A DNA stretch of 64,000 bases from Zanthoxylum bungeanum (taxonomy: Eukaryota > Streptophyta > Magnoliopsida > Sapindales > Rutaceae), in assembly GCA_019454045.1 (NCBI GenBank), contig SKCR01038870.1, positions 124,001-188,000 of the forward strand, written 5' to 3'. This document shows positions 8,831 through 54,300 of this stretch, piece after piece. The translations under genes and the position numbers were made by a program. Numbering within the stretch: position 1 is the stretch's first letter; the number at the start of each line of letters is the position of its first letter. The notes below the pieces were generated by a model that was not told the origin of the DNA, made no database searches, and worked only from the letters and a program-made list of their open reading frames with translations.

Positions 8831-8977
8831 ACTACTCCAGCAAAATCATCAAAAAGAAACTACTATATGTACCAAAAAATTGCACTTAATTAAAACATGT
8901 CGAAAATTGCACTTAAAAGAACATATATAAGTGCAAGAATATAACTAACAAGAAAATCTACCATTTCAAATACTACT

Positions 8978-12736: not shown

Positions 12737-12884
12737 TAGTGAACATGTGAATTGAATCTGATGACATACTTATTCTGAATTTCCCCTTCCGATATTTGTT
12801 TCCCGCAACTTCCGCAACCTAAAAAGTAGTGCCTCCGTACGAGACTCATCATCGGGACTTATATGCAAAAATGCAGTTCCTACA

Positions 12885-16551: not shown

Positions 16552-17103
16552 GACTGTAGGACATAGAAATCGGTGACGTTGTCCCGGGCTCACGGCCCGG
16601 TTGGGAGTACGGAATAGCCCACGGGGGAACTAAACCGGAGAACTAAAAATGGAGTCGCCACCCGGTGTGAACCGGGAAAATGATTTAAGGCCGCACTCAC
16701 CCCTCGCAAGGGAAGACCTCAAACCGTTGGGTTCGGAATGGTCCCTTACTTATGCCACTTGTAATGAAATGATTTATGCAATCGTACGACCAAATCTCAT
16801 GCAACACGTACCAGATAATTTAAGCAACATGCAAGTTTGCACACCTATAATCGTAAATGAAAGAAATGAAGGCAATGTACATAATTCATGAACGTATTAA
16901 GCAATAAAGTGCAATAATGTAACTAATAACAACTATAAAGGCATTGATGATAAAAGCGAGCACACAATCTCATGAATAAATGCGGAAAATATAAACAAAC
17001 AATAACAGTAAAGGCATAAATATTGAAGGGAGCTAACTAAGCATATGATGGGGAAGAGAATGACTAAGGGAACAAACAGGCATGAAACATGATGAAGGAA
17101 TCT

Positions 17104-17533
17104 GTCCAGTGTGCGCGCGTTCGTATAGCGTTCGTAAACGCGTTCGAACGGTAAACAGAATGCAAGCGTTCGAGTAGCGTTTGATAACGCGTTCGAACGA
17201 TAAACATAGTGTCCGTGTTCGTATAGCATTTGATAACGCGTTTTAACGGGATGGGACCTGATGCATGATACAATAAAATGCATGCGCGTTCGAGTAGCGT
17301 TCGTAAACGCGTTCGAACGGTAAACATAATGCAAGCGTTTGAGTAGCGTTCTGAGGCGCGTTCGAACGGAAATAAGACATAATGCATACGTTCATGTAAC
17401 GGTCGTAAATGCGTTCGAACGGAATAAGATAGAATACATACGTTCGTGTAGTGTTTGGAAACGCGTTCAAACAGAATAAGACAGAATGCATACATTCGTG
17501 TAGCGTTTGGAAATACGTTCGAATGAGATTGCC
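17104..17533 (-). repeat. CGTTCGAACG repeat cluster A in 5' LTR
   Basis: Same array as 10624-10943 with about two more units. Positions 17167-17199 are the exact reverse complement of 3319-3351 in the copia leader, a 33-bp identity. Confidence 0.88.
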
Positions 17534-19198
17534 AAAATGACATCTGAAATGACACAAACATATATATGGATAAACAAATACACAATGTAAGACCTCGTGT
17601 GCCCGATGGAACATATTTCTCATTCAATCGGGTTCACCTCGTCCGGCGCTACAAAACTTCATGGAAAAGGTAGCCTTTAGGCATATCCCTCGAATAGAGG
17701 ACCTTTAATCCACCCTAGTTAGCCCATGCGCACAAGAATGCAATGTATGCGTAAATAAAGCAATGACATGCAAAGGGTAAATGACATAATAAAAGGCGCG
17801 GCAAAAAATCGTGGTAAAGGTAGCCTTCAGGCATTTCCCTCGAATAGAGGACCTTTAATCCACCCTAGTTAGCCCATGCACATTATATTACAATGCATAT
17901 AAAATAAAGACAACAATAATATAGGACCTCGTATGCTCGATTAAATATATCTCACATTCAATCAAACATACTCCATCCGGCGCGGCAAAACGTCGTGGCA
18001 AAGGTAGCCCTTGGGCTTTTTATCCCTCAAAATGGAGGACCTTTAATTCAAATTGATTTGCCAATGCGCACTATATCATCATGCATAAATAAGTAACATG
18101 CAGAAAGTAATGGCATACTAACGACTAAATCATGCTTAAAAAATAAATAACATACTAGCAACCCAATCATGCTCGAATACAAGGTTGGATGAAACGAAAT
18201 GTGTGAATCTCTCAAGTGGTACGTGGTATTGTATCCCGACTGCAAACCGCAATACCGTCCATTCGGATTCAGCTACGGAATTTACGTCCGGGTTTCCATC
18301 CGATATACCACAAGAGAGAACACATATTCCATTCATTCAAGGACCACAACATATATCAACAAACGACTCTCATGCGGGGGAATTCTAATAAACAACAAAA
18401 AAGATGAGAATAAATAAGAAGGGTGCCCTCAGGTCTAACCTCTTAGGTCTTCTCTCGAAAGTGCGTTACACGGCCGTCGGAAGGGTTGATGCTCCGCAAC
18501 TCCTCTGGTTCACTGGTCAACTGTTCTTGTTCACTGTTTCACTGTTTTGAGCTGTCGTTTCCTCTGTTTACTGCTATTTCCGCTGTATTTTCTAGTCACA
18601 GTATTGGCTTACTGGTTTTTGGTAAATAAGGGACTTTTTACGGTGTTTGGGCTGCTGTTTGAGTGTGTATTTTCGGTGACTGCAGTACAATTCAGGGAGT
18701 TATTCTCGGTGATAGGCAGTGCAGTTAATGTGAGGCTTATGGTGCGGCAATGTGAAGGTGTTTTGAGGGTTGTGTGATGCTGCAATGGATGGGTTATTTG
18801 GTGAGTGTTTCTGTGATGGTGGAGTATAGTAGAAGGGAAAATTATTTGCTTGCTTCTTTCTTTCTTTTTTGCTTGGGCGTGTCTGTTAGGGGCAGCAAGG
18901 GTTGGGCTTGTGTCTTTTTTTATAGGCAAAGGCTATGGTTCCTCTTGTGTGAATAGGAAATGGAATCATGCAATCAATGGTGATATCTCCTAATTAGTAT
19001 ATCACAAGGAAAATGTCTATTTAATTAGGGACATGATTGGGAAGATGATATATTTGATTTGTTTTATTTAGGTATGTGAATTATTTAGATTGGATTGTGA
19101 TTTATTTAATTTTGGAATTTTAATTATTTTTGGGTGGGTTTTGGTGGGCTAATTGGGCTTAGGCGTGAGGCTAGCAACAAAACCAGAAGTACCGACAC

Positions 19199-19280
19199 CG
19201 TTCGAACGCCGATTCGAACGCTACACGAACGCCCGCAATCTGCTTGTCGTTCGAACGTGTTCACGAACGCAGCATGAACG
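19199..19280 (+). repeat. CGTTCGAACG repeat cluster B in 5' LTR
   Basis: Copy of 12655-12736, with TTCGAACGCCGATTCGAACG at its start. It lies about 1.7 kb from the inverted cluster A. Confidence 0.75.
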
Positions 19281-20316
19281 AAAGCAGTGAACATGTGAAT
19301 TGAATCTGATGACATACTTATTCTGAATTTCCTCTTCCGACATTCGTTTCCCGCGACTTCCGTAACCTAAAGAGTAGTGCCTCCGTACGAGACTCATCAT
19401 CGGGACCTATATGCAAAAATACAATGCCTACACCAAGTTTCTGTATCGCGCAATACATCTTCCTCTTTGACCCTACGGTATTTATCCCCATATCCTTCAA
19501 ATCCTCCAATGTCAACATTGTTAACACCTCATCATCCACCTCATGTACCTCAAAAACTGGTGCATATCTCCCTAACCGTAAACTATTCAACCAAATTCTC
19601 ACCCCATCTTCACTCCCTCCACTATTCCACCTTGCATCATTATCCGATGGCCCAGATAACTCCACTACATCGTTATGGTCCCTACTTCCTCTAATGGGCC
19701 CTCTTCTACTGTAATAAAAATCATCCATTTCATTCCCATCAACAGCTAAATTGTCAAGAGAATGAACTGGGCTTTGTTATTTCAATGGACTTTCCGAATT
19801 TTCCATATTAAAGTCACGATACTCATCTTCCAAATCTTCTCCATTACTATACTTAGAGTCTCCAACATTAAAGTTGTTGTTATCGTAGTTATTAAAGTCG
19901 TCGTTTTCGTTTTCGTTATTGTTATTGTTATTTCCACAGCTTTCATTATTTTTGGATATCCAATTAGACCTAACCCTTTTAATAGATCTTATCTTCTTCG
20001 AATCATTCACTTTCCAGCTCCCAATCGCGATACTATCGAGATTCTCATCTAGGGTTTCATTCAATTCTCCTGAATTAGAGTTCATATTAGTTAAAGCTCG
20101 AACCTTTGACGACTTACTAGCTTCCGTCTTGTGGTCGACATTGGCCACGTGTTTGTGCTTGAATTGATTGGCGGCGTTGGAAGCGGCGTTGGTGACTCTC
20201 CGTACGTGTGAATCGTACGACTGGTGATGGTGTTGGTCGCCGCCAATGTCACCTAATCTGACGCTTGGCTTTCGCCGACGCTTTGATCCAACGGTGTTAG
20301 AAAGAGATACAATCAT

Positions 20317-26219: not shown

Positions 26220-26590
26220 CACCTTCAACACGCCCATGCCAACAAACAAGATAAGCTCTTGGTGGGACGTACCCAACCCCGAGCCAATAAGATCATTTGG
26301 CCACAAGGGAATGTTCCCTCGTGCCATTCAAACATAGCCATAGTGGAGAAAATCCGACCTTATGCCAACAAACACAATAAGGTCTCGGTGGGACGTACCT
26401 GACACCGAGCCGCTAAGACCGCTTGGCCAGAAGGGATGTTCCCTCATTGTGCCATTCAAAACATGACCATGGGGGAGAAACTTCGACCCCATGCCAGCAA
26501 ACACAATAAGGCCTCAGTGAGACATACCCGATCCTGAGCCACTATAATTATTTGGCCATAAGGGAATGTTCCATTGTGCCATTCAATAAA
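26220..26590. repeat. 129-bp minisatellite, left part (interrupted by Athila)
   Basis: Three degenerate units with AATAAGGTCTCGGTGGGACG, CCACAAGGGAATGTTCCCTC and GTGCCATTCAA. The array continues at 38868 on the other side of the Athila element. Confidence 0.88.
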
Positions 26591-28638
26591 TGTGATGAGC
26601 GGAAAATATATCAATATTTACCGCCATTTTTACTTAATATTTTGTTTAGTTTCTCGGGTTTGATGAACGTTTTGACGTGGTTTAATTTATTTTGCAGATA
26701 AAATAATATTGGGACGCAATGAAATCATTTAGGACGAAATGTGGGTCAAATAAGGGCAAAAAATTGGACTTGACATATTAATTTTGGAGATTGGAAACTT
26801 GAAAGGGCGTTTTAACGAAGTGCAGTTTTGGAAATTCCAATTTTGTGCATCTGTCATATTTTGGGCATAACATTTTACTCCAATATCGGATTTAGCTGAT
26901 TCAAGTTCCAGATTAAAGAAGACTCAAAGATCTACAACTTTGAAAGACAAAATAATTTCTAATTCTGAAGATTTCATGCCCGAAATTGATGAACCATCCA
27001 GAAGTGTGTTGTGTGTAATTATTAAAGTCATTTTCAAAGCAAAAAATAAATTAATAAATAAATAATAAAAATTATCAAATCACCACCAAACATGATAAGC
27101 AATTAGTGGAGCAATTAATAATGGATTTGGTGGAGCAATTAGTGGAGCAATTAATAATGGATTTGGTGGATGATTTGATGGAGGCAAAATTTTACCTATA
27201 AATACCAAGCCATTTCATTTGTAAAATTCATACTTTCTTCTAAGGAATTCCTTAAGAATAGTAAGAATATTGTATCTTGTTTGTTTATTTACAGCTTTCA
27301 GTAATTAATTTCCGCTTTCGCACTTTCCTTTCTTTACTTTTCAGTTTTCACTTTCTGTAATTTACTTTTACGCACAGTACTTTTCATTCTTTAATTTTCA
27401 GTTTTTACTTTTCAGTAATGAGGAGGTAACTTCCCCCTGCTAGGGTGAAAGATAATTCTTTTACTATTTCTATTTAGATTAATCTCCTTTTGATATAATA
27501 TATTCACTATTTAAAATTTGACTTAAAAAGGATACCGCCAGATTGGTCAGTTGGTAATTCATTTTAATCTGGTTTAAACCTGACTAATCAAGGATATCGC
27601 CAGATTGGTCGGTTGGTAATTAAATTTTCTTACCGCCTATATGGCAGGTTTATTTTGGTTCCGCCTTAATGGTTGGTTGGACTTAATTTGACTTAATCAG
27701 GATACCGCCTATATGGCTGGTTGGAAATGTTATCAGAAGTTTATATATTATATTATGGGAGATATATAAATTAGTAGTAGTAAAAGTTGATCCTTTTGCC
27801 TTAGCATTTTATTTTATTTTATTGCAATTTACTTTTCAACTTTTAATTTACCGCAATTACTTTTCAGTATTTTTACTTTATGTCTTTTAAAGCCCTAGTT
27901 ATGTGTTGTAACTAAATTAGTTATCTGGGGTTGTGATGACTTTTAATATCACCGGTTTATAAAGGGTTAGATTATAGTTTGGGTAATATAAAGATTTATT
28001 TATTGAGTCTTAATCTTAATGCTTTTTCATTAACTGGCCATTAATAAAATTGAACTGGGAAACTTAAAATGAACTAGACATAGGGATATTAAGTTTAAGA
28101 CCTTAGACTCAATAGCCCACGATCTTCCTTGAGGATATATAACCCTTTAATAGATTTCCTTACAGGATAGACATATATCTGTCGGGCGGGGGTAGCCATA
28201 ATTGGAACTTAAACTTAATGAATCCAGATAATTTGGTTGACATAGACATATGGTTCAATTGGGTTAAACTGGGTATTTGTGTCTGACCATCGACAGAGGC
28301 TTTCACATAATTTAGTGTTCCAGGTTAATAAATCAATATATTACCCAACTATAAAATAACCACTTCATCTTTAAAATGATATTGGAAGAAATCACAACCC
28401 TAGATAGTTTTTTAATATTGAATTTTCTGAAAATCTACTTTCGAACAATTGTATTTACTTGTTTTTAAATTTAGAATTGTCACCATTTCAAATCAATCAA
28501 ACAACCTGTTAGATATTAGTAATCATTTGACCTCATAAAATTAATAGCTTAGGTATTAAGTCCTTGTGGGATCGATACTTTTTATACTTCTTGAACGATA
28601 CATGCGCTTGCGTTATACGCGTGTGTAAGCACCGGTCA
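26591..28638 (+). repeat. 5' LTR of Athila element
   Basis: 2,048 bp. It contains short internal repeats (GGAGCAATTAATAATGGATT twice near 27107-27165; GATACCGCC...GGTTGGTAATT units at 27530-27730). It is very similar to 36820-38867. Confidence 0.95.
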
Positions 28639-28644
28639 AGTTTT

Positions 28645-28662
28645 TGGCACCGTTGCCGGGGA
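28645..28662 (+). promoter_or_regulatory. Primer-binding site of Athila element
   Basis: TGGCACCGTTGCCGGGGA differs at one base from the complement of the plant tRNA-Asp 3' end, the primer known for Athila elements. It lies six bases after the LTR. Confidence 0.85.
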
Positions 28663-28757
28663 CTTATTTATCTTTCACTATTAGTTTTAAGGTTAGATAC
28701 CTTTACTTGTATCTAATTTTCTTTTTTTACTTATTGTTTTTGTTTTCTTGTGTTTCA

Positions 28758-30374
28758 GGTTCTCAGAAACTTCATGAGACGAACAGAAGCTTTAAACTCC
28801 GACCGCTTGACCCGAAAATTGAAAGAACCATCAGACAGTTGAGAAAGGAAAGGCGAGAAGGCCAAGAAGCTTTAGTCAACATGGAACCTGAACCTTTGGA
28901 GGTTGCACCACCAATTCCCATTCGAGACAGAACCATTCCGGTGGTTGACAGACTCATTTCTTGTATTATACTTCCTCCCTTACCAGCAAATGCAGGTGAC
29001 ATCAAAACATGCATTCAGATGATTCAGCAGTCAGTTCAGTTTGGGGGAAATGCAACTGAAGATCCTAATGCCCACATCAGCAACTTCCTGGAAGTTTGCG
29101 GCACTTTCAATTACAACCGAGAAGCTGAAGAAGCAATGAGACTGCGTGTTTTCCCATACTCCTTGAATGACAGAGCTAAAGCTTGGCTACATTCACTACC
29201 AGCAGGTTCCATCATAACTTGGAACACTTTAGCCACCAAATTTCTTGCAAAGTACTTTCCACCAGCCAAAACTGGAAAGCTGAGGAATGACATCACATCC
29301 TTTGTGCAACAAGACTCAGAAACTCTCTACGAAGCTTGGGAAAGGTACAAAGATTTGCTCCGGAAATGTCCTCACCATGAGATTCCAAAATGGCTTCAAG
29401 TCCAAACATTCTATAATGGGCTTTATGGAATAATAAGAACCACAATCGATGCTGCTGCTGGAAAAGCCTTGATGGCAAAAGGAGAAGATCAGGCCTGGGA
29501 CCTAATTGAAGAAATGGCCAATAATAATTCCTTGTGGCCAACAGAAAAGAGCATGATCCAAAGAATTGCAGGAATTTATGAAAGTGGAGCCAATACAGCA
29601 GTCAACGCCAAGTTAGATCAGATATGCAAATTCATGGAGACTCTTACCACTGGATCCACAAGTTCACCATATGGAGGAGCACCAGAACCAAACCAACTTG
29701 AGGAAACGGTGAATTATGTCAACAATTTCAACATACAGGGGAACAATCCATATTCCAACACCTACAACCCAGGGTGGAGGAATCATCCTAATTTTTCATG
29801 GAGCAACAATTCAGGCCAACATCAGAACTATCCACCACTTAGATTCCAGCAACAGAACAAAGGCCAGGAGCAGGCAAATGAACCAGGAATAGCAGAAGTG
29901 CTGGCTCACTTAAAAAAGTACGATGCTATCTTTCAGAGCCAATCAGCTTCCATCAAAGCACTGGAGAATCAAATCGGACAACTGGCCAATGCTCAGAGTT
30001 ACAGACCGCCAGGTAATCTTCCCAGCAACACAGAATCCAATCCAAGGAACCGAGGGAAGGAGCAATGTCAAGCCATTACTTTGAAAAGCGGTACTGAAAT
30101 CAACAAAGATGTTGGAATCAAGGTGTCCCAAGAAGAAGTTCCAAAAGAAGCAGAGCAACAGATTGAGGAAAAAGAAGCAAAGGAAAAAGAACCAGAAAAA
30201 ATCATTCCACCTCCACCTTTTCCTCAACGACTTCAGAAAAACAAACTGGACAAGCAGTTTGCTCGATTCCTGGAGGTGTTCAAAAAGCTTCACATCAACA
30301 TTCCATTTGCAGAAGCCTTGGAAGAAATGCCCAGCTATGTAAAATTCATGAAAGACATTCTTTCACGAAAATAG
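28758..30374 (+). CDS. gag: Athila Gag
   Basis: One uninterrupted frame of about 500-540 codons. The conserved start LDPKIERTIRQLRKERREGQ is at about 28803-28862. It is followed by the Gag core with NAHISNFLEVCGTFNYN, FPYSLNDRAKAWLHSLPAGS, TLATKFLAKYFPPAKTGKLR and SLWERYKDLLRKCPHH-like text (about 29070-29400), all typical of Athila. A Gln/Asn-rich linker and a Lys/Glu-rich tail follow. The first in-frame ATG is at 28881. The conserved block starts upstream of it, and a splice acceptor-like TGTGTTTCAG ends at 28758, so the true start may come from a spliced leader. The first ATG at 28776 is out of frame. It ends at TAG 30372-30374, where related elements usually read on. No zinc knuckle is seen, as usual for Athila. 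Confidence 0.85.
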   Translation, partial: GSQKLHETNRSFKLRPLDPKIERTIRQLRKERREGQEALVNMEPEPLEVAPPIPIRDRTIPVVDRLISCIILPPLPANAGDIKTCIQMIQQSVQFGGNATEDPNAHISNFLEVCGTFNYNREAEEAMRLRVFPYSLNDRAKAWLHSLPAGSIITWNTLATKFLAKYFPPAKTGKLRNDITSFVQQDSETLYEAWERYKDLLRKCPHHEIPKWLQVQTFYNGLYGIIRTTIDAAAGKALMAKGEDQAWDLIEEMANNNSLWPTEKSMIQRIAGIYESGANTAVNAKLDQICKFMETLTTGSTSSPYGGAPEPNQLEETVNYVNNFNIQGNNPYSNTYNPGWRNHPNFSWSNNSGQHQNYPPLRFQQQNKGQEQANEPGIAEVLAHLKKYDAIFQSQSASIKALENQIGQLANAQSYRPPGNLPSNTESNPRNRGKEQCQAITLKSGTEINKDVGIKVSQEEVPKEAEQQIEEKEAKEKEPEKIIPPPPFPQRLQKNKLDKQFARFLEVFKKLHINIPFAEALEEMPSYVKFMKDILSRK

Positions 30375-33300
30375 AGATTGGGAGACTACGAGACAGTAGC
30401 ATTGACGGAAGAATGCAGTGCCATTATTCAGAGGAAACTTCCCCCAAAGTTGAAAGATCCTGGCAGTTTCATAGTTTCATGCACCATTGGAGAACATTAT
30501 ATCGGTAAGGCTTTATGTGATTTAGGTGCTAGTGTTAACTTGATGCCTTTTTCTATTTACAGGAAACTACAGATTGGAGAAGCAATGCCTACCTCAGTCT
30601 CGTTGCAACTTGCTGATCGAACCCTCGCATTTCCAAGAGGTGTTGTTGAAGATGTGCTGGTCAAAGTCGACAAACTCATTCTTCCATCAGATTTCATCAT
30701 CCTTGACATGGAAGAAGACAAAGAAGTACCTATCATTCTTGGGAGACCATTCTTGGCTACAGGTAAAACTGTGATTGATGTGCAAAAAGGAGAACTGACC
30801 ATGAAAGTGCAGGACTAAGAAGTTACCTTTAATGTTTTCAAAGCCATGAAATTCCCGAGCGATGAAAATGAAGAAGAATTCTTCAGAGTTGATGTTGTTG
30901 ATAGTATCGTTCAGGATACTGAGCCAAATCCCACAGATACACTCGAAGCTTGCATCACCAACATGACTGACAGCGAGCTAGATGCTGAAATCCTGGAATG
31001 TATCAACTACCTTGACAAACCATTCCGATTCAAAGCGATACCACCAGTTGAAAGCTTGGAACTGCCAAAGAAAGATCGAATCAAGCCTTCGATTGAAGAA
31101 CCACCACAGCTGGAGTTGAAGTTACTTCCGAGCCATCTCAGGTATGCATTTCTTGGAAACTCTTCTGAATTACCTGTTATTATTTCTTCTTCACTAACAT
31201 TGGAGCATGAAGAAAAATTACTGAGAGTATTACGATAGCACAAAAGAGCCATTGGCTGGACTATAGCAGACATTCGAGGTATTAGTCCATCATTTTTCAT
31301 GCACAAGATTATGATGAACGATGAGTACAAACCCACAGTGGAGCATCAACAGAGACTCAATCCAATCATGAAGGAAGTCGTAAAGAAAGAAATAATCAAA
31401 TGGTTGGATGCTGGCATCATTTACCCCATCTCAGACAGCAGTTGGGTGAGTCCTATGCAGTGTGTACCAAAGAAAGGAGGAATTACTGTGATTACCAATG
31501 AAAAGAACGAGCTAATCCCAACAAGAACAGTGACTGGATGGAGAGTATGCATGGACTACAGGAAGCTGAATAAAGCCACGAGAAAGGACCATTTTCCACT
31601 TCCATTCATTGACCAGATGTTAGACAGACTGGCGGGACATGAGTTCTATTGCTTTCTTGACGGATATTCAGGGTACAATCAGATTGCCATCGCCCCAGAA
31701 GATCAGGAGAAAACCACATTTACATGTCCCCATGGTACTTTTGCTTTCCGCAGGATGCCATTTGGATTATGTAATGCCCCCGCCACTTTTCAGCGTTGGA
31801 TGATGGCCATATTCTCAGATATGCTGGAATAGAGTATGAAGGTTTTTATGGATGACTTTTCTGTGTTTGGAGATTCTTTTGACCACTGCTTGCAAAATTT
31901 GGAACATGTGTTACAAATGTGCGAAGATACAAACTTGGTGCTCAATTAGGAGAAATGCCATTTCATGGTACATGAGGGCATTGTTCTTGGACACCGGATC
32001 TCACAAAAAGGAATCGAGGTAGACAAAGAAAAGATTGAAACAATTGAAAAACTACCTCCGCTGACATCTGTCAAAGGGATTCAGAGCTTTCTCGGACATG
32101 TAGGTTTTTACATGAGATTTATCAAAGACTTTTCCAAGATTGCTAAACCTCTATGCAATCTTCTGGAGAAGGATGTGCCTTTCAACTTCACCAAAGAATG
32201 CCAGGAAGCTTTTGGGACAACGCAAAGCAAAGATTTTCCACACCATTTACTACTCCAGCAGAACTCTGAATGAAGCTCAACTCAACTACACAACCACTGA
32301 AAAAGAGTTGCTCGCAGTTGTGTACGCTTTTGACAAATTTCGCTCCTATCTCCTGGGTCCCAAAGTGGTGGTCTACACAGATCATTCAGCAATCAAATAC
32401 TTGATCACGAAGAAAGATGCCAAACCCAGATTGATCTGTTGGATACTTCTTCTGCAAGAATTTGATGTAGAGATTCGAGACAGGAAAGGAACAGAAAACC
32501 AGGTGGCAGATCACTTATCGAGGCTCGAGAATGGAGAAACAGCTGACAAAGATCTGTCAATCAAAGAAACTTTTCCAGATGAATAGCTGTTTGCCATGAA
32601 ACACCAAGATGCCCCTTGGTATGCTGACTATGTCAATTACATTGTGTCTGGAAAATGGCTGTTGGAATGGACAACTCAGCAACGAAAGAAATTCTTCAAA
32701 GAAGTCAAGCATTATGTCTGGGATGAGCCGTACCTGTTCAAACGGTGTGCTGATCAACTATTGAGACGGTGTGTTCCACATGAGGAAGTCAACAGTGTTT
32801 TGCAGCACTGTCATTCATCACCATATGGCGGACACTTCAGCGGAAACAAAACTGTAGCCAAAGTCCTACAATCAGGTTTGTTCTGGCCCACTCTTTTTAA
32901 AGATGCTTATCTTTTTGCTCTTCAATGTGACAGGTGCCAGAAAACGGGAAATATTTCAAGGAGAAATGAAGGACCGTTGTAAAACATTCTAGAAGTGGAA
33001 ATATTCGATGTATGAGGTATTGATTTCATGGGACCCTTTGTTCCATCATTCGGAAACCTGTACATCTTGGTTGTTGTAGACTACGTCTCCAAATAGGTCG
33101 AAGTAATTGTTCTGCCATCCAATGATTCAAAAGTGGTGATCAAATTCCTGAAAAAGAACATTTTCACTCGGTTCAGAACACCTCGTGCAATCATCAGTGA
33201 TGGTGGCCCACATTTCAGCAACAGATATTTCGATGCACTCCTATCCAAATGCGGAGTTACTCACAAGGTTGCCACAGCTTATCATCCACAGTCAAATGGA

Positions 33301-33903
33301 CAGATTGAGGTTTCAAACATGGAGATCAAAAGAATCCTAGAAAGAACCGTTGGACCAACAAGGAGGGACTGGTCTACAAAATTAGATGATGCATTATGGG
33401 CCTACCGAACAGCTTACAAGACACCCATTGGTATGTCCCCATATCGATTGGTGTTTGGGAAAGCATGTCATCTGCCAGTTGAGCTTGAACACAAGGCGTA
33501 CTGGGCACTGAAGAAGTTGAATATTGATTCACAAGCTGCAGGAGAGAAAAGACTTCACCAACTCAACGAATTGGAGAAATTTCGCCTACAGGCTTATGAG
33601 AATGCCAGATTGTACAAAGAAAAGACCAAAAAATGGCATGACCGAAAAATAGTGCACAGACAGTTGGAACCAAGGCAGCAGGTGCTGTTGTACAACTCAA
33701 GATTGAAACTTTTCCCTAGAAAGTTGAAATCAAGGTGGTCAGGTCCATTTGTAATCACTCAGGTTTTTCCATATGGAGCTGTTGAGTTACTAGATCCCAA
33801 CACCAACGAAACATTCAAAGTTAACAGTCAGTGTGTCAAGCACTACTGGGGAGAATCATTTGAGCGACAAAAAGAAAGTGTCACACTTTCAGATCCAGCC
33901 TAA
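30375..33903 (+). pseudogene. pol: Athila protease-RT-RNase H-integrase with nine in-frame stops
   Basis: Protease: ALCDLGASVNLMPFSIYRKL (about 30516). RT: GWRVCMDYRKLNKATRKDHF, FCFLDGYSGYNQI-like block, FAFRRMPFGLCNAPATFQRW and the catalytic FMDDFSVFG (about 31846). RNase [21 protein letters not shown] and [13 protein letters not shown], but the N-terminal part with the first catalytic Asp is deleted at about 32213. Integrase: HHCC zinc region (about 32810-32945), then [12 protein letters not shown] and [17 protein letters not shown]. Stops lie at about 30372, 30816, 31236, 31830, 31947, 32584, 32980, 33013 and 33094. Most fit one C-to-T or G-to-A change from Gln or Trp codons. The last frame, integrase core to C-terminus (33133-33903), is open. 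Confidence 0.92.
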
Positions 33904-34041
33904 CGATCGAGAAGTAAAGTCTAGCTGACGACTTTAAACTTAGCGCTCGCAGGGAGGCAACCCATGCAATTTTTTTATATATTGTGATTTGGTGTGATTT
34001 AATTTTGTATGTTTAGTTTTTGCAGATTAAGTCATTTCAAG

Positions 34042-34590
34042 ATGGAAGAAGCTCTAGCAAATCTTCACAAGCAATTTCCTTCTCTCCCTCAAAAATCTCT
34101 GATGAAAGTTTACAAAGCTCGCTTGGAACGGATGAGGTTACTGACGATCCATGGTGTTCCTAATGATATTCGTTGGGTAATTGAAGCACGGGTCTAATTG
34201 GCAGGTGAGTCTTCTGAATCTTTTATTTCACATATGCCTGGTTTTGGAAGAAGCACCTATGCAAAGAAACTTAGAGCTAAGCAAATGAGTCTTTGTTACA
34301 AATGTGCACGCTGGAATTGCAATACTCGTTGTCGTTATTTAGGAATGGTGTCTGATAATCGCGAAGATAAAATTAAATTCATTAGGGATGGCTTGAGTAA
34401 GGAGTCTGTAGATAATATATCTTCGACTCTTGAGACGCATCCCAGTGGATATGTACACATAGACATTCGCAAATTACATACACAATTTCAAAAAGAAAGA
34501 CAACAGTTAAGTCTTGGGAATCTGACTCAAAAAGACCCTGTTTGCCAATTTATAAGAAAATTGGATGGGAAGCTTGTCCCTGACGCATAG
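34042..34590 (+). pseudogene. Unrecognised Cys-rich ORF between pol and LOG, one in-frame stop
   Basis: An ATG at 34042 follows a TTTTTGCAG acceptor-like sequence. The frame starts MEEALANLHKQFPSLPQKS, meets one TAA at 34195-34197, and continues in the same frame to TAG/TGA-type stop at 34588-34590, about 180 codons in all. The second half has a compact cysteine cluster CYKCARWNCNTRC (about 34294-34332), perhaps zinc-binding, then a charged helical stretch. I do not recognise a family. Position matches the env-like slot of Athila elements, but I see no signal peptide or membrane segment. It may be another captured host fragment or an element-specific accessory gene. The frame could be whole in sister copies, since TAA is one change from CAA. 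Confidence 0.55.
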
Positions 34591-34840
34591 ACGTCAATCA
34601 AGCCGTTACTTTTCTTGTAAATATTATATCTCTTTGTCTTTTCTTAATAATTGTAATTTGTTTTGTTATTTTCTTTTATTTTCTCCGACAGGATCCAGAC
34701 CTTTTTTACTATCACGATTTATTTTACTATTAACTAATAATTGTCATTTGGCAGGTACTAGTGCTATTATTTTACTCACCCTTTTCAGGTCTTATAAATT
34801 CAACTCATCATTGCACTTTTGAAGACATCCAGAGTAAAAC

Positions 34841-35494
34841 ATGGAAGCCATTTCAAGAAGACGAGTTGAAAACATCTGTGTGTTTTGCGGTACTAGTGTT
34901 GGTACTAAGCCACAATACGTAGAAGCAGCACATGAATTGGATCGAGTCTTAGCTGCAAGAAATATGCACTTAGTATATGGCGGAGGCAATCTTGGACTAA
35001 TGGGGATCGTTTCAAAGGCCGTACAGGAAGGAGGCAGTCACGTTTTGGGAATCATCCCAAAACCCTTGACAGAGGCAAATCTTATTGAACCATCAAACGG
35101 AGAGGAACTGATCGTGTCAGGTATGTCTGAACGATTGATAGAAATGATTAACTGTGCTGATGCTTTTATTGCTTTGCCAGGTGGCTTGGGCACATTGGAG
35201 GAAATTTTTATAGTGTTATATTGGGCGAACCTGAACATACACCAGAAACCGCTTGGACTGTACAACGTTGAAGGATTTTATGATTTTATTTGTGTGTTTC
35301 TTGATGATGCTCGGAGAAATGGGTTCGTGTCAAAACCTTTAAAAGAACTCCTCTTCACTGCCAGAACTGCTCCGGATCTAATAGACCAACTCTTAGCCTA
35401 TGAACCACAAGTTGACCCTATCCTTTCAAAGATAAATTGGTCTGAGGACGATCGTGGTAAGAGGCGTCGGATTAATCTGGATCTTAACCTTTAA
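34841..35494 (+). CDS. LOG: LONELY GUY (LOG)-like cytokinin riboside 5'-monophosphate phosphoribohydrolase, captured inside Athila element
   Basis: An intact 217-codon intronless ORF. LOG enzymes release active cytokinin bases from cytokinin riboside 5'-monophosphates in the cytosol and nucleus. The family signatures are present: ICVFCGTS at residues 11-18, GGGNLGLMG at 47-55 (usual GGGSxGLMG), MSERLIEM at 95-102 keeping the Arg, and PGGLGTLEE at 113-121 (usual PGGYGTxEE), which contribute to nucleotide binding and catalysis. Length fits the family (about 200-230). Host LOG genes have several introns; this copy has none, suggesting capture through an mRNA. Unusual points: Leu for the usual Tyr at 116, Leu for the usual Lys after Arg98, and a C-terminal GKRRRINLDLNL tail. 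A TTTTCAG acceptor-like site lies about 54 bp upstream of the ATG. It sits between pol and the 3' LTR in element orientation. Enzyme activity is inferred, not shown. Confidence 0.92.
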   Translation: MEAISRRRVENICVFCGTSVGTKPQYVEAAHELDRVLAARNMHLVYGGGNLGLMGIVSKAVQEGGSHVLGIIPKPLTEANLIEPSNGEELIVSGMSERLIEMINCADAFIALPGGLGTLEEIFIVLYWANLNIHQKPLGLYNVEGFYDFICVFLDDARRNGFVSKPLKELLFTARTAPDLIDQLLAYEPQVDPILSKINWSEDDRGKRRRINLDLNL

Positions 35495-36808
35495 TTTCCT
35501 ATAGAATTTCAGCTAACCAGGTATTATCTTCTAAACTCTTCTTCTACTGTTTAAGACATTGGGGACAATGTCTCATTTAGGTTTGGGGGAGGGGATTTGT
35601 TGATCAGTACCTTATTTTTAATCTGTGTGTTGTTTTTATTTTTAGTCCGAAATTTTTTCGAAAAATACAAAAAAAAATTTGAAAAATTTTCAAAAATTAC
35701 AAAAATATTTTGCGTTTTTATGTTTTTATTTTGACTAAAAATGTGAAATTGGTAAGAGATAGCTGAGGAAGGAGCTTCCACTCCTGAGACGTATCTCAAA
35801 CCTATTTCGGAACAAGTTAATTTTTGTTTATTTCCTTTTGAATTATTTAATTTGTGAATTCTCCATAAAACTGACTAAAATGGATCTTCATATGCCCAAT
35901 TGACAGGTATTATCAACATACATAGAAACATACAGATATGAGCTAAAATTGAAAAGTTTGTAATATTCAGTGCTCTAGTTTAATTGGAGGAAGCATCTCA
36001 AAATGCAATGGAGTCAAAAAAAAAATCTGAGATCCGAGTTATTAAGTCTGTAAGGGTGTTTTAACACCTAGTGCCCTAAAGCCAACTGGTTTGGGAGTCA
36101 CTAGCCCAAAGCTCGCTACATGGATCAAAGATGCTGCAAAAAATATATATATATGAATTCAGAGTAATTAAGTCTGTATGGGTGTCTTAACACCTGGTGC
36201 CCTAAAGCCAACTGGTTTGGGAGTCACCGACCCAACACTCGCTACATAGATGGAAGATATTGTATATAAATAAAATAAAAAATCAAAGAAAAAAATCAGA
36301 AATATCCGAAAAATTATTCCATTGCTGCAAAAAGGTGTGAATTCTGATAAAACTTTAGGACACAAATAATACTCTCTTATCAACTGCACTTATGACTGTT
36401 GTGGGCAAAAATGAGTTGTTTAATATTTTGTTGGCTGTGTATATGGAGAATGGTAAATATAATCGGAGAATTTACTTATTCAGTAATTTAGATTGAAAGA
36501 AAACAACTAGTAACTTGGAGTAGAAGTTTCACCTGATTAGTCACTAACTTCTTTATTCTCTTTTCGCTTGTCTTTTTGCTTTTGTGTGCATTAGTTTCAC
36601 TACATTTTTTACTTTTGTAAAACGTTTGTGGGTATCGTTGCCGTAAGCCCTCACGAGACTATAACTCGTCCACTAGGGACACCTAGGGGTTTAAAGGTTT
36701 GTTGCATATGCTAAATGCAACTGTGATCCCTACGAAAGTGGCTTAGTTTAATTTTAATTGTTTCTGGTATTTTATTTTGTTGTTTTGCTCGAGCACTAGC
36801 AAAATGTT
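35495..36808 (+). other. Athila 3' non-coding leader
   Basis: Begins with the GACATTGGGGACAATGTC inverted motif (35556-35573) and GGTTTGGGGGAGGGG, common after the coding region of Athila elements. It contains an AT-rich stretch and a duplicated segment of about 90 bp (near 36039-36130 and 36166-36255, CCTAAAGCCAACTGGTTTGG). No gene. Confidence 0.7.
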
Positions 36809-36819
36809 AGGTTTGGGGG
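36809..36819 (+). promoter_or_regulatory. Polypurine tract of Athila element
   Basis: AGGTTTGGGGG directly precedes the 3' LTR start TGTGATGAGCG. Confidence 0.75.
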
Positions 36820-38867
36820 TGTGATGAGCGAAAATATATCAATATTTACCGCCCTTTTTACTTAATATTTTGTTTAGTTTCTCGGGTTTGATGAACGTTT
36901 TGACGTGGTTTAGTTTATTTTGCAGATAAAATAATATTGGGATGCAATGAAATCATTTAGGACGAAATGTGGGTCAAATAAGGGCAAAAAATTGGACTTG
37001 ACATATTAATTTTGGAGATTGGAAACTTGAAAGGGCGTTTTAACGAAGTGCAGTTTTGGAAATTCCAGTTTTGTGCATCTGTCATATTTTGTGCATAACA
37101 TTTTACTCCAATATCGGATTGAGCTGATTCAAGCTCCAGATTAAAGAATACTCAAAGATCTACAACTTTGAAAGACAAAATAATTTCTAATTCTGAAGAT
37201 TTCATGCCCGAAATTGATGAACCATCCAGAAGTGTGTTTGTGTAATTATTAAAGTCATTTTCACAAAGCAAAAAATAAATTAATAAATAAAAAATAAAAA
37301 TTATCAAATCACCACCAAACATGATAAACAATTAGTGGAGCAATTAATAATGGATTTGGTGGAGCAATTAGTGGAGCAATTAATAATGGATTTGGTGGAT
37401 GATTTGATGGAGGCAAAATTTTGCCTATAAATACCAAGCCATTTCATTTATAAAATTCATACTTTCTTCTAAGGAATTCTTTAAGAATACTAAGAATATT
37501 GTATCTTGTTTGTTTATTTACAGCTTTCAGTAATTAATTTCCGCTTTCGCACTTTCCTTTCTTTACTTTTCAGTTTTCACTTTCCGTAATTTACTTTTAC
37601 GCACAGTACTTTTCTTTCTTTAATTTTCAGTTTTTACTTTTTAGTAATGAGGAGGTAACCTCCCCATGCTAGGGTGAAAGATAATTCTTTTACTATTTCT
37701 ATTTAGATTAATCTCCCTTTAATATAATATATTCACTATTTAAAAGTTGACTTAAAAAGGATACCGCCAGATTGGTCGGTTGGTAATTCATTTTAATCTG
37801 GTTTAAACCTGACTAATCAAGGATACCGCCAGATTGGTCGGTTGGTAATTAAATTTTCTTACCGCCTATATGGAAGGTTTCTTTTGGTTCCGCCTTAATG
37901 GCTGGTTGGACTTAATTTGACTTAATCAGGATACCGCCTATATGGCTGGTTGGAAATGTTATCCGAAGTTTATATATTATATTATGGGAGATATCTAAAT
38001 TAGTAGTAGTAAAAGTTGATCCTTTTGCCTTAGCATTTTATTTTATTTTATTGCAATTTACTTTTTAACTTTTACTTTACCGCAATTACTTTTCAGTATT
38101 TTTACTTTATGTCTTTTAAAGCCCTAGTTATGTGTTGTAACTAAATTAGTTATCTGGGGTTGTGATGACTTTTAATATCACCGGTTTATAAAGGGTTAGA
38201 TTATAGTTTGGGTAATATAAAGATTTATTTATTGAGTCTTAATCTTAATGTTTTTTCATTAACTGGCCATTAATAAAATTGAACTGGGAAATTTAAAATG
38301 AACTAGACATAGGGATATTAAGTTTAAGACCTTAGACTCAATAGCCCACGATCTTCTTTGAGGATAGATAACCCTTTAATAGATTTCCTTACATGATATA
38401 CATATACCTGTCGGACGGGGATAGCCATAATTGGAACTTAAACTTAATGAATCCAGATAATTTGGTTGACATAGACATATGGTTCAATTGGGTTAAACTG
38501 GGTATTTGTGTCTGACCATCGACAGAGGCTTTCACATAATTTAGTGTTCCAGGTTAATAAATCAATATATTACCCAACTATAAAATAACCACTTCATCTT
38601 TAAAATGATATTGGAAGAAATCACAACCCTAGATAGTTTTTTAATATTGAATTTTCTTAAAATCTACTTTCGAACAATTTTATTTACTTGTTTTTAAATT
38701 TAGAATTGTCACCATTTCAAATCAATCAAACAACCTATTAGATACTAGTAATCATTTGACCTCATAAAATTAATAGCTTAGGTATTAAGTCCTCATGGGA
38801 TCGATACTTTTTATACTACTTGAACGATACGTGCGCTTGCGTTATACGCGTGTGTAAGCACCGGTCA
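36820..38867 (+). repeat. 3' LTR of Athila element
   Basis: 2,048 bp, the same length as the 5' LTR, with scattered single-base differences and small indels only. Confidence 0.95.
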
Positions 38868-39420
38868 ACATGGCCATGGGGAGAAACTCCGACCCTGGGC
38901 CAGGAAACACAATAAGGTCTTAGTGGGATGCACCCAACCCCGAGGCTAAGATCACTTAGCCACAAGGGAATCTTCCCTCATTGTGCCATTCAATACATGG
39001 TCATGAGGGAGAAACTCTGACCTCATGCCATCAAACACAATAAGGTCTCGATGGGACGTACTCGATCCCGAGCCGCTAAGACCACTTGGCCACAAGGAAA
39101 TGTTCGCTCATTGTGCCATTCAATACATGACCATGGGGGAGAAACTCTGACCCCATGCTAGAAAACATAATAAAGTCTCGATGGGACGTACCCGACCCTG
39201 AGCCTTTAAGACCGCTTGACCACAAGGGAATGTTCCCTCATTGTGCCATTTAATACATGCCCATGAGAGATAAACTCTGATCCCATGCCAGCAAACACAA
39301 TAAGGTCTCAGTGGGATGTACCCGACCCCGAGCCGCTAAGACTGCTTGGCCACAAGGGAATTTTCCTTCTTATGCCACTAAAGCAACATGGCCTTGGCGA
39401 AACGAATGCAGCCTCGAGCT
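38868..39420. repeat. 129-bp minisatellite, right part
   Basis: At least four more units with AATAAGGTCT words at about 38911, 39041, 39170 and 39299, about 129 bp apart. Joining 26590 to 38868 gives a continuous array, which proves the Athila element inserted into it. Confidence 0.9.
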
Positions 39421-48353: not shown

Positions 48354-51300
48354 TTAAGATGGCACCGTGCAAAGTTGACCATGTCCAGGGTTGTGCTCCA
48401 ATGGGTACATAGTGGCGCCTTTCACAAATTTCTGATGGTCAACTGCAGCCTTTTTTATGCTTGCAATTGATGAAGCCTTCGTACTGACTCGCTTCTTTAT
48501 CAAAGAACAAGTATCGAGTGGGTTCGAAGACCCTGCTCCAACCATCCTAAAGAGCATAAAAAATCATTATATGCATGTCCAAGAATATCGTTCAGAATGA
48601 AAATGGGCGGAAAAGGATAATTTACCTCAACAATTTTCTTGATGCTACTCTTGCAGCTCTAATTGTATTACGATTAGGTACCCATTTCACAACACGGTTA
48701 GGGTCAGCCCGCATTGGGGAATGGATTTTGACAAGCTGCACAAGATAAATGGTAAAAGTTGAGGATAAGACCCTCGTAGATAATTAAAGAATTCCACTTG
48801 TATCACAAAGCGAGAATTAACCAAGATTTGTAACTACATGACTTGTCTAATTCTGACATTTACATTATTGATGTAAAATTCAGTAATAGATTAAAGAGTT
48901 AGAATGCATAAACTGCCCTTAGGATATACTCCCAACTGAACCCAATGATGTTGAGTTCATGTGCCAACCTATGGCATATACTGCAGGAAGAAAGCCTTCA
49001 CTCATGCCCTCTGTCACGGTCCTAGGATCAGACTAGGACGTGCAGTCACTTTACAAAGGAGCTCATGTTTCGGGACATCGGTTTAAGGTCGTTAAGGGTT
49101 ATATGTACCCTTCATATACCCTTGTACTGGTGAGTTTCCATCCGTGAAGCCTTATTCGGAAGTTTGCCTGGAGATTTAGAAATGTGCTCACTTGCCGCTA
49201 GGAGCTGGCCTAGTTGTGCAGCGTTGTGAAGGAGCCTATATTTCGGAATGCCGGATTGAGCTTACTCCAAGCCCTAAGTAACTCTTAGGGGTGGATGTAC
49301 TGGGAAGTTCTCACCCGTGGAGTCCCGTTCGGAAGTTTGGCGGGAGATTTTGAGATACGCTAGCTTGCCGCTAGTCGTTAGCCTAAATCGGTGCATTGTG
49401 AAGGAGCTAACGACCCGGGGTGTCGAATCGAGTGGGACCAAGTTCCAAAGTGAATCTTATGGTCCCTTGTACTGGGAAAATATCAGCCCCAGAGTTGGAT
49501 TCCGAGATTTGTCGGGAGATTTTGGCAGTAGGCCCACTTTTGGGTCTTTTCCGCTAAAGTGGGGGTGTTGTGGAAACCCATCAAGACGAGCTCGTTTAGA
49601 GACGAGATTTTAACCCAAAGTCGCTTATATGGTGGCTTACTGGATGCCCGGAAGAGTTCCTGAAAACTCCTCTTAAGATAGATTTTAGGGGGGGTGTGAC
49701 AACTCAAGCGCCAGGTGTGTATACTGGTGAGACATGTGCAATGTCTTTAAAACCTCCTTAGGGGGGGAAGCCTAGGTGAACCTTGGGAAGGGCCAAGGGG
49801 GCTTCGGTGGTCTTGGGGCTTTAGCCGTGAACCCTCTCGCCCTTAGACAACGTTGGGACAATGATGGATTGTCGAGATTGAGTTGGCGGGAAAATGCCAT
49901 GTTTTATATCCGTTGTGCTATTCGAGTGCCGGGTCCCGGTGTTGAATGGGCCCGCAAGAGTATGCATTGAGATAGCTTGTGAGCTTTCATAAATCAATAA
50001 AATTACGGGTCTGTTCCCTCCCCAACAATGGGAAATTAGGGACGGAGGTTCCGGGTAGGCTGACTTATGCGGGACGCGACCGTGTAAGTGCCGCACGAGC
50101 CCTTTCTAAGTTAAGGAAAAAGTTGGCCCGTGACAGTTGGTATCAGAGCCCTAGGTTGGGCAAGTGAAATGTCTACGGATGTAAGTAGATGTTATAGAGA
50201 TGTTGAGAACATCATAAGGCTAGTGTGAAGCCTCGGTAGAGAAACGGCTCGAGAGGAGGCCGGGAGAGTGCGTGTTGATGCACGTAGAGAGTGAAAATCC
50301 TCAATTGAGACGGATTGATGTGAGACGATATGAGAACACCTAAAAAGTGCTAGTTGTATACGAGGTTGGCTCGGGTGAAGCCAAAATGTTCGGGAGAGAC
50401 CCGAAATGGAGGTGAAACTTGTCTACGAGAGACAAGCAAGTGGTCTGCACGCCATGAAGGTGTAAGACATATTTGGGATGTATAAAAAAAAACATCACGA
50501 GAGTGCCGATGGGATATTGGCAAGAGTATATGCGTTCATGAGAACCCGATGTGGGATTGGTTGAAGTTTTGTGGGGTCCAAAAGAGGATGTGAGACCCTT
50601 TTCCCATGGCATTGAGTGCCAGGATGTGATAGAGAGTCGAGATGTGTAGTCCTCTTGTGTGAGGCAATGTCAAAGACCGAGTGTGAACCCGATGGTTCGT
50701 GTAAGTATTTTGGAAAGGTTTTATCGAGTAAAGCCTTCGCAAGACTATGAGAAATGAGTTGTTTGGATTCCTGTGATTAGGAATGCCATTAGCTTAAAGC
50801 TACGAGTAACGAGTTGTGTGGATTCTCTATAGTGGGAATGCCCTCAACTCAGAGCTACGAGTAACGAGTTGTGTGGATTCCCGTGAGTGGGAATGCCAAC
50901 CAAAGTGTGATGGCTTGAGATAGGCCAAAGTAAAAGTGGGGGAGTGAGCCTGAAATGAGTCAGGTATCTCCAAAGATCTTATAGAATGTGATAACCATTG
51001 TGTTGGTTATGTAATGATTGTGTGGGAGACCAAGGTTGAATTATCTTGGTAACACAACGAGTTGCTCGTAAAGGTAGAGTGCCTTACGAGTTGGAGGTGC
51101 AATGAGTTGCACAAGGGTTGCATGAAAATTACAATTGCGAGAGATGTGAGTGTGGTTCCGGAAGGCCCGAGGTGCTTGCATTTTGGAGAATGCATGTGAC
51201 ATAATGCGACTACGAGTAGTCGAAATGAGAGTGTATGTACGAGTTACACGGGTGATAGGCCAGATATGTGACTTTGGCTTTAAAGTGACTTTGAGAATGG

Positions 51301-54300
51301 TGATTACTTCAAGGAAGTGATCTTATGTCGAACAAAGTTTGGTGAAATGACCCTGTGAGTCAGGGTAGAATTGGCTAGAGTGCCAAAAGTGGGGTGGGAA
51401 CACCCAAGAAAGTAGTACGAGTTGGCTTGGTGCCTAAGAGTACTAAGGTGAGAAGACCAAGAGTGGTCGTGGGAATGATAGAAGTTGGAAACAATTCTAT
51501 CTGCGACAGTTGAGTATCGAGACAATTGAGAAGCTCATGAGAGAGCAAGTGACCCAGAGTTATGTGTGAGAACGAGATAGTTGCTAGTGATATGAGAGCA
51601 ACTACGTGTGTCCAAGAGAGGACTAGTGGGAAATTAGCTCCACCATAAGCTAATTGTGGATCGGATGTGTGTTCATCTTCGGGAAACCTGATGTGCTACG
51701 CCGAGCGCCTTGAAGAACAGGTAGGCAGGGGGCCAAGGTGAAGTGAACAACCGATCTATTCATAATCAAAATGAACAAAAACCCTTTGTTTTTATTAAAA
51801 ACCCATTCACGTTTAAGTGTATGGAGCTTTTTGTAAGAAGTTACTGAATCGGAATTGAAAACTCGCACACAAGAGCGTGTAGAAAGTAGTGACCGAAATC
51901 AGAAACACTCATGCACGAGAGTTTGTATGGAGTTGTGACTGAGACTGGAAACGAAAACAAATACACAATCACGTGTGTGGAGTTGTCCCACACGTAATGA
52001 TGGGGATTCTTAGAAGTTGTACAAATTGTGTGTTGGGTTGATAATCCAACCATGTGCGGGAACTTGTGCCTAGTGACAGAGTTGAGCCATTATGTCAAAA
52101 CAAAGACTCACGTACGGGAGTGTATATGACGTTTTGTGTTTAGATATTGTGTGCCCAATTCTTCATAAAGCTGCATGATGTTACAAACGTGGACATGTAA
52201 TTTCATTCGTTGAGATAAATGACATTGCAATGTCTTCACTGTGTGCGTTACGATGGGGATTCCAAGAAGATGTGACAATGTGTGGAATTGATAATCCTAA
52301 CATGTACGAGAATAAAAGAGTTCCCAAACATGTATGGAGATAATATCAAACCCATATTGTGGTAAGTTACAGAAGTTGGAGATTTCGTCAAAAATGGTAA
52401 ACCTGTGCCTAGTGCCGAAGTTGAGCCATTATATCAGAAACCAAGACTTATGTACGAAAAACGTATATGATGTTGTTGTGTTTGGATATTGTGTGCCCAT
52501 TTCGATATAGCATTGGATAATGTGGCTAACATAGACATGTGATTCCATTCATTGACATATGAATGTGGTTTCAATGTCTTCCTTGTGAGCCCATAACACA
52601 CAGGTCCCAGGATCAAAAGAGATTCGTGACAAATACAACTTGAGTTGCCATCGTTGAGGACGACGATGGATGAAGTGGGGGAGGATGTTACAATCCTAAC
52701 CCTCAAGTCGTGCCATCGTCGCGGACGACAATGGATGAAGTGGGGGAGGATGTTACAATCTTAACCCTCAAGTTATGCCATCGTCGAGGACGACGATGAA
52801 TGAAGTGGGGGAGAGAGTGTCACGGTCCTAGGATCAGACTAGGACGTGCAGTCACTTTACAAAGGAGCTCATGTTTCGGGACATCGGTTTAAGGTCGTTA
52901 AGGGTTATATGTACCCTTCATATACCCTTGTACTGGTGAGTTTCCATCCGTGAGCCTTATTCGGAAGTTTGCCTGGAGATTTAGAAATGTGCTCACTTGC
53001 CGCTAGGAGCTGGCCTAGTTGTGCAGCGTTGTGAAGGAGCCTATATTTCGGAATGCCGGATTGAGCTTACTCCAAGCCCTAAGTAACTCTTAGGGGTGGA
53101 TGTACTGGGAAGTTCTCACCCGTGGAGTCCCGTTCGGAAGTTTGGCGGGAGATTTTGAGATACGCTAGCTTGCCGCTAGTCGTTAGCCTAAATCGGTGCA
53201 TTGTGAAGGAGCTAACGACCCGGGGTGTCGAATCGAGTGGGACCAAGTTCCAAAGTGAATCTTATGGTCCCTTGTACTGGGAAAATATCAGCCCCAGAGT
53301 TGGATTCCGAGATTTGTCGGGAGATTTTGGCAGTAGGCCCACTTTTGGGTCTTTTCCGCTAAAGTGGGGGTGTTGTGGAAACCCATCAAGACGAGCTCGT
53401 TTAGAGACGAGATTTTAACCCAAAGTCGCTTATATGGTGGCTTACTGGATGCCCGGAAAAGCTCCTGAAAACTCCTCTTAAGATAGATTTTAGGGGGGGG
53501 TGTGACAACTTAAGCGCCAGGTGTGTATACTGGTGAGACATGTGCAATGTCTTTAAAACCTCCTTAGGGGGGGAAGCCTAGGTGAACCTTGGGAAGGGCC
53601 AATGGGGCTTCGGTGGTCTTGGGGCTTTAGCCGTGAACCCTCTCGCCCTTAGACAACGTTGGGACAATGATGGATTGTCGAGATTGAGTTGGCGGGAAAA
53701 TGCCATGTTTTATATCCGGTTGTGCTATTCGAGTGCCGGGTCCCGGTGTTGAACGGGCCCGCAAGAGTATGCATTGAGATAGCTTGTGAGCTTTCATAAA
53801 TCAATAAAATTACGGGTCTGTTCCCTCCCCAACAATGGGAAATTAGGGACGGAGGTTCCGGGTAGGCTGACTTATGCGGGACGCGACCGTGTAAGTGCCG
53901 CACGAGCCCTTTCTAAGTTAAGGAAAAAGTTGGCCCGTGACACCCTCCATGCTTTTAAGACTAATACAAAGTTTCTTTTGTGAGAGACGCAAGGAGAGCA
54001 CTTCCAGACTTACGCCTAAGCATTCCATCAACTGGTAGTAAGCCTTCCATGCAAGGGAGTATGACCCTTTCGCGATTCAGAGAAATATCTGGTCCTGAAA
54101 ATATATTATAAAACGACTCAATCAGGTAAACATATAAATTTGAGACTAAAAATTGATGCAATTAATAGTCAAAAGTAAAACAATACCATTCTTTATAGCC
54201 CGGATCCACTGTGAAACCATACATATCTACTGAATCACATATGGAAAGAGCAAATTCGAGAGCCTTGAGCCCAGTTCCCTTTGCCGCTGAACCAAAGGAC

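Follow-up and report, generated by a model that had tools for sequence, protein, structure and literature searches.

The window (the whole stretch of 64,000 nucleotides analysed here) contains a 12.3-kb long terminal repeat (LTR) retrotransposon of the Ty3/gypsy type at positions 26593 to 38867, embedded in a tandem array. Between its pol region and its 3' LTR lie two accessory open reading frames (ORFs), one NABP-like and one of the LOG family. A sequence-only reading had placed the LOG ORF in sense orientation between pol and the 3' LTR, and the ORF coordinates, the order of Pfam domains and the LTR positions confirm this. The features are as follows.

26233..26586, no strand: tandem array left of the element, unit of ~129 bp (TRF; ~82% like the right array)
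26593..28638, forward: 5' LTR, TG...CA (LTR ends read)
28644..30374, forward: gag-containing ORF (Retrotrans_gag), terminating at an in-frame stop (ORF list, Pfam)
28645..28662, forward: primer binding site candidate, TGGCACCGTTGCCGGGGA (sequence position)
30378..33903, forward: pol, comprising pieces of reverse transcriptase (RT), RNase H and integrase and broken by in-frame stops and a single frame change (ORF list, Pfam)
34042..34590, forward: NABP-like accessory gene (Carla_C4/Viral_NABP), 182 codons, stop at 34195 (Pfam, alignment)
34841..35494, forward: LOG ORF, 217 aa, ATG to TAA (ORF list, Pfam, NCBIfam, structure match, homologues)
35123..35137, forward: codons 95-99, MSERL (host-type MHxRK), R98 kept, H96 and K99 replaced (alignment)
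35177..35203, forward: codons 113-121, PGGLGTLEE motif, kept (alignment)
35210..35212, forward: codon 124, Ile for the host-type pocket Glu (alignment)
35459..35491, forward: basic cluster and LxLxL tail, KRRRINLDLNL, predicted disordered (sequence, AlphaFold model)
35557..35570, forward: landmark CATTGGGGACAATG, common to the window and the LOG-less relative L001 (at 2576) (alignment)
36807..36821, forward: polypurine-tract-like sequence before the 3' LTR (read by eye)
36822..38867, forward: 3' LTR, TG...CA (LTR ends read)
38868..39377, no strand: tandem array right of the element, 130-bp unit (TRF)

The element and its setting

By their TG...CA ends the LTRs measure 2,046 bp each; the earlier claim of two LTRs stands, with its length of 2,048 bp corrected. 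Comparison of 2049-base cuts, which reach one or two bases beyond each LTR end, gave 48 differences over 2047 aligned positions (K2P 0.0239, ~0.024). The five-base flanks of the element, AAATG and ACATG, agree at four of five positions, a near-match for a target-site duplication. The 18-mer at 28645 resembles the 3' end of tRNA-Asp, apparently with one mismatch, and would thus match a non-Met tRNA, a trait considered for the Athila lineage; the listed start of the gag ORF coincides with this site, and the true start lies further in.

Pfam identified gag, RT, RNase H and integrase, in that order, in five of nine scanned ORFs, together with the LOG and NABP-like ORFs. Two of the nine had no Pfam match, and the integrase core piece scored below the Pfam cut-off. 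This domain order and the two LTRs are Gypsy features. The sequence-only reading had described an Athila element with LOG in the third-gene slot; a Gypsy element with an uninterrupted LOG-derived ORF in its accessory slot is borne out, while the name Athila is that reading's own, given from motifs, and is kept here as an assumption. Neither a chromodomain nor a second (archaeal) RNase H was detected by Pfam in the nine scanned ORFs, in which pol is fragmented, and the absence of both is given as an Athila lineage feature in a section of PMC6317226. The Athila ORF-1 domain PF03078 was also absent from the nine ORFs by Pfam, and the same paper reports it as optional, in 16% of Athila elements.

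That the LOG ORF owes its place to an assembly misjoin, or is a host LOG gene adjoining the element, is hardly credible. LOG begins 250 bp after the NABP-like gene, the LTRs around it match, a single tandem array encloses them, and the presence of LTR and array on both sides makes a misjoin at LOG unlikely; in addition, the slot is recognisable in L001 and the C-terminal tail of the protein is common to close relatives. We rejected a misjoin on these grounds.

Several other repeats occur in the window. Two 1.1-kb direct repeats (49012-50135 and 52818-53942; 99.3% identical, 3.8 kb apart) have the appearance of a short, young LTR element or of a recent duplication. Direct repeats of ~515 bp (2494-3008 and 8319-8831; 98.6%) surround ORFs (4248-6039) that by eye resemble those of copia elements and may belong to a young Copia element. 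Segments at 10078-12884 are repeated in order at 16555-19432 (92-94%, ~6.5 kb apart), with complex tandem arrays of 29-57-bp and 161-bp units between them.

The LOG-derived protein

The LOG ORF (217 codons, no internal stops) matches Pfam PF03641 (1e-33) and NCBIfam TIGR00730 (9.5e-47), and its best solved structure is AtLOG3 2a33 (1.3e-56), to which an AlphaFold model (mean pLDDT 86) aligns with a TM score of 0.92-0.94 (by target length). The uninterrupted LOG ORF announced by the sequence-only reading is thus real. Against the cytokinin-LOG equivalog NF058542 the window protein itself scores 107 bits (cut-off, 300).

Of 8000 candidates scored in a homologue search, 7747 fell within E 0.001; the best 120 were examined, a cap that favours full-length rows. 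These are 48-87% identical to the window LOG and include proteins from metagenome contigs (76-87% identical) and, per source names, plant proteins from Populus, Paulownia (4 rows), Reevesia (5 rows), Diplodiscus and Xanthoceras, the Paulownia and Reevesia rows being on different sequences. Exactly 217 aa were found in 69 of the 120. Host-type LOGs were collected by searching with AtLOG3 and AtLOG8, and those sampled are of LOG1/3 and LOG8 type; again the best 120 were examined. A tree was built from hand-picked rows (the window, 39 of the best 120 relatives and 24 of the best 120 host-type hits), and all 40 non-host-type rows fell on one side of a branch (support, 100/100). On this sampling of sequences the window LOG is in one clade, apart from the LOG1/3- and LOG8-type host LOGs, and the P. 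trichocarpa protein P0039 is in the same clade.

The sequence-only reading had proposed a capture of host LOG mRNA and suggested alignment with host LOG paralogues. That alignment, done for the sampled LOG1/3 and LOG8 types, sets the ORF apart, and the best 120 relatives and the tree do not support a fresh capture; the separate clade and the 48-87% identical relatives led us to reject recent capture from a host gene of either type. Five of the 39 relatives in the tree retain the old pocket, and among these P0044 alone has the tail. The old-pocket proteins P0035-P0037 and Xanthoceras P0074/P0120 may be host genes, perhaps nearer to the host parent. Three further Xanthoceras proteins (P0009, P0019 and P0032) are predictions with two LOG-like parts per gene model and an old-type pocket. 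Element context comes from sequence for the window and L001, from a section of PMC9289625 for Populus and Citrus, and from multiple copies for Paulownia and Reevesia.

The nucleotide pocket was compared with that of Corynebacterium glutamicum LOG (CgLOG), for which a passage of PMC4979012 proposes Arg99 and Glu122 as catalytic residues, Met96, Lys100 and Glu121 as the adenine site, and Met96, His97, Lys100, Glu125 and Trp129 as the putative prenyl site. At CgLOG Arg99, Glu122, Met96, Lys100, Glu121, His97, Glu125 and Trp129 the alignment places window residues Arg98, Glu121, Met95, Leu99, Glu120, Ser96, Ile124 and Trp128, respectively. The PGGxGTxxE motif, catalytic Arg98 and Glu121, Met95 and Trp128 are retained; His is replaced by Ser96, Lys by Leu99 and Glu by Ile124. 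His 96, Lys 99, Glu 124 and Tyr116 are each present in 120/120 of the best host-type LOGs. Among the best 120 relatives Lys and Glu survive in nine each (the same rows), His in 25 and Tyr116 in one, and Lys and Glu are jointly absent from the other 111; Arg98 is present in 108 and Glu121 in 117. The kept Arg and Glu and the replaced His, Lys and Glu indicate, at the level of sequence, a site rebuilt on its base/prenyl side and largely preserved on its phosphate/ribose and catalytic side. The relatives without Arg98 (12/120, including P0008, P0010, P0011 and P0014) have Gln in ten cases, Cys in one and Lys in one.

The sequence-only reading took the protein for a cytokinin-activating enzyme, but three pocket residues invariant in the best host-type LOGs are replaced, even though Arg98 and Glu121 remain, and ordinary cytokinin activation by the window LOG is doubtful. 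A working enzyme that raises active cytokinin wherever the element is expressed is therefore unlikely in our judgment. It would be in keeping with the conserved motif, the two catalytic residues and the AtLOG3-like fold. Pocket residues are also an incomplete predictor of LOG activity, because the prenyl site of the M. marinum LOG is also divergent (PMC4979012) and wheat LOGs with identical critical residues yield different products (a section of PMC11593424). Set against this are the joint loss of the pocket Lys and Glu in 111 of the best 120 relatives, the absence of Arg98 from some of them, the score under the NF058542 cut-off, and mutants of CgLOG: alanine changes at AMP-binding and catalytic residues, S19A excepted, nearly abolish activity, and the Lys matching the lost one is AMP-binding in CgLOG, in a passage of PMC4979012 that does not include the list of mutants.

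The protein ends in LDLNL (residues 213-217). An LxLxL pattern lies within the last 16 residues of 88/120 best relatives, versus 0/120 best host-type LOGs. Of the 32 relatives lacking it, eight have retained Lys99; among the other 24 (out of the 111 relatives without Lys99) several are truncated, others carry near-motifs, and P0073 has no Leu repeat. From the best 120 relatives, 93 were at least 200 aa long and without Lys99, and 28 rows below 80% identity were chosen from these; their three tail Leu are conserved at 93, 93 and 89%, while the intervening residues vary (commonest, 32 and 29%). LxLxL is a form of the EAR repression motif, so the tail may have an EAR-like, corepressor-recruiting function.

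Trees of 53 hand-picked rows (40 of the best 120 relatives, the window and 12 host-type LOGs) were also computed. With tail and pocket columns removed, 36 rows labelled as tailed form one side of a branch (100/99), six of them (P0002, P0008, P0011, P0020, P0067 and P0073) lacking a strict LxLxL; in the same tree the 35 rows that lost Lys have support of 93/81 and are not starred. P0044, with the tail and the old pocket, is the first branch within the tail group, which suggests that in this sample the tail was gained before the pocket changed, an order that P0044 alone sets.

The element copy in the window is itself decaying, which the sequence-only reading had passed over. Stops interrupt gag-pol at 30372, 30816, 31236, 31830, 31947, 32584, 32980, 33013 and 33094, with a frame change between 31833 and 32139 (i.e., before 32140), which precedes the stop at 32584; the stop at 34195 interrupts the NABP-like ORF. 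These 10 stops over ~5.7 kb of gag-pol and NABP predict 1.14 for the LOG frame, and the Poisson probability of no stop there is ~0.32, a rough estimate (gag start by eye, 33901 taken as the natural end, 31947 possibly past the frame change). The open LOG frame in this copy thus proves little, and we rejected it as proof of function or special preservation. In addition, of the 69 columns in which conservation among the best 120 relatives reaches at least 90%, the window LOG deviates in 7, S127Y and G34D being two of the changes; nine other relatives gave 0 to 6 departures by the same check. Both results would suit a captured coding sequence that does nothing for the element, its frame open here by chance. 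As an account of the family this is decidedly unlikely: many relatives keep the 217-aa frame, and the patterned tail recurs across the 28 representatives, which argues against drift, since drift should break both.

The accessory slot

Directly upstream of LOG, and unmentioned in the sequence-only reading, lies the NABP-like ORF. The window piece scores 23.9 against Carla_C4 (cut-off, 20.9) and 21.2 against Viral_NABP (cut-off, 23), and each model is matched by 26 of 29 aligned family members. Among 304 candidates, 301 are relatives; of the 120 listed many are 182 aa, so that open 182-aa frames exist, and they come from Populus, Xanthoceras, Acer, Rhamnella, Parasponia, Orobanche and metagenomes. 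The family is a plant-genome family, and one of its metagenome clusters, P0143, comprises 566 sequences. The gene at 34042-34590 is a candidate link between element and virus, in either direction of transfer. Its structure model (mean pLDDT 60) was too weak for comparison. By eye, acceptor-like TTTTTGCAG precedes NABP and CCCTTTTCAG precedes LOG.

When genome contigs were scanned with the NABP alignment, 37 stretches matched and one of them, L001, was confirmed. L001 runs from an integrase ORF to NABP, with no LOG in the remaining 983 bp to the contig end. The landmark AAGCCGTTAC begins 10 bases after the end of NABP in both the window and L001, and the spacing from it to CATTG(A/G)GGACAATG is 957 bp in the window versus 219 bp in L001. 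The LOG flanks score 118.5 (shuffle maximum, 75.5) and 77 (maximum, 61) against L001, above all 300 shuffles, in AT-rich sequence whose fine alignment is unsure. L001 may represent an older LOG-less state or a loss of LOG. The contig (1-3330) is filed in a Candidatus Nomurabacteria MAG; with its plant-type Gypsy integrase and NABP, it is probably plant contamination of the bin. Among viral contigs, 19 stretches matched LOG and 68 matched NABP, none of them confirmed, and phage records gave no match to NABP.

TIR-derived ribosyl nucleotides are an example of a host nucleotide signal. The LOG fold could act on such a signal as a sponge or hydrolase and form, with the NABP-like protein, a two-gene counter-defence module. 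The kept phosphate/ribose site and changed base pocket would fit, as would the neighbour, which is related to carlavirus cysteine-rich proteins (CRPs) reported to be silencing suppressors (a section of PMC12172455). Yet among the sequences analysed LOG and NABP were seen together in the window element only; P0101 (LOG) and P0141 (NABP), both from jgi and both on 4511-base contigs, hint at one shared contig and do not prove it. We consider this account quite improbable.

Proposed function and known systems

The reading we favour, and hold to be about evenly poised between right and wrong, is an Athila-type Gypsy element with a LOG-derived nuclear accessory protein that has another nucleotide specificity and an EAR-like corepressor tail. 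We infer a maintained accessory protein, probably nuclear, with changed nucleotide specificity. Under this reading, an Athila-type Ty3/gypsy element would have captured a plant LOG coding sequence once, long ago, and placed it after pol and an NABP-like gene that is also found in a relative without LOG in the slot. The LOG fold and the phosphate-binding motif would have been retained, in most cases together with the catalytic Arg and Glu; the protein would have gained the basic and LxLxL tail, and then lost the Lys and Glu (often also the His) of the adenine/prenyl pocket. Expressed from a spliced or downstream LTR-driven message, the nuclear protein may bind or split some nucleotide outside the usual cytokinin set; its EAR-like tail may recruit a TOPLESS-type corepressor and so help the element to cope with host control. 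A bolder form, tentative and on the unlikely side, is that retroelements domesticated LOG by adding a nuclear corepressor tail and then a new nucleotide specificity, and that it now regulates host silencing or immunity in a nucleotide-gated way, forming with NABP a two-gene counter-defence module in Gypsy elements of several eudicots.

The sequence-only reading knew of no description of this combination, but YgdH (the LOG domain) has been published in Gypsy consensuses of Citrus sinensis and C. clementina and, with the copy filter off, of Populus trichocarpa, in a section of PMC9289625 that cites Steinbauerova et al. 2011. Among the papers listed by searches of the open-licence PMC literature, titles and abstract starts yielded neither the pocket change nor the LOG and NABP pair. 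The clade, the changed pocket, the tail, the NABP neighbour and the LOG-less relative come from the present analysis. What had been a one-line note in the literature can now be described as a defined, testable protein family, namely a LOG lineage whose pocket has changed and whose tail is new, and which an element carries at least in the window. Some Populus 'LOGL10' annotations are perhaps element genes and not host cytokinin genes. Should the tail prove to bind a corepressor, or the pocket a nucleotide that is not a cytokinin one, plant retrotransposons would have an accessory factor dedicated to manipulating the host.

The closest known systems are the Citrus and Populus YgdH elements, likewise Gypsy LTR elements with an extra LOG-family domain, and P. 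trichocarpa P0039, known from its protein alone, belongs to the window LOG clade; the section of PMC9289625 concerned is silent on pocket, tail, partner gene, phylogeny and element lineage. In Athila and Calypso elements, too, pol is followed by an accessory ORF in sense before the 3' LTR (a section of PMC7264820), but theirs is env-like, whereas an NABP-like gene and LOG fill the slot in the window. A Phalaenopsis Gypsy element with an AlkB-like RNA demethylase (PMC9289625, in part) also has a host-type enzyme as accessory gene; the enzyme is a different one, and its activity was demonstrated, whereas the window LOG is known from sequence. The cysteine-rich NABP/CRP of carlaviruses resembles the neighbour ORF in matching Carla_C4 and Viral_NABP, but the neighbour belongs to a plant-genome family, often of 182 aa. 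Plant type-I LOGs (AtLOG3 and AtLOG8) share the fold, PGGxGTxxE and the proposed catalytic Arg and Glu with the window LOG, which differs from them in the replaced His, Lys and Glu of the adenine/prenyl pocket and in its LxLxL tail.
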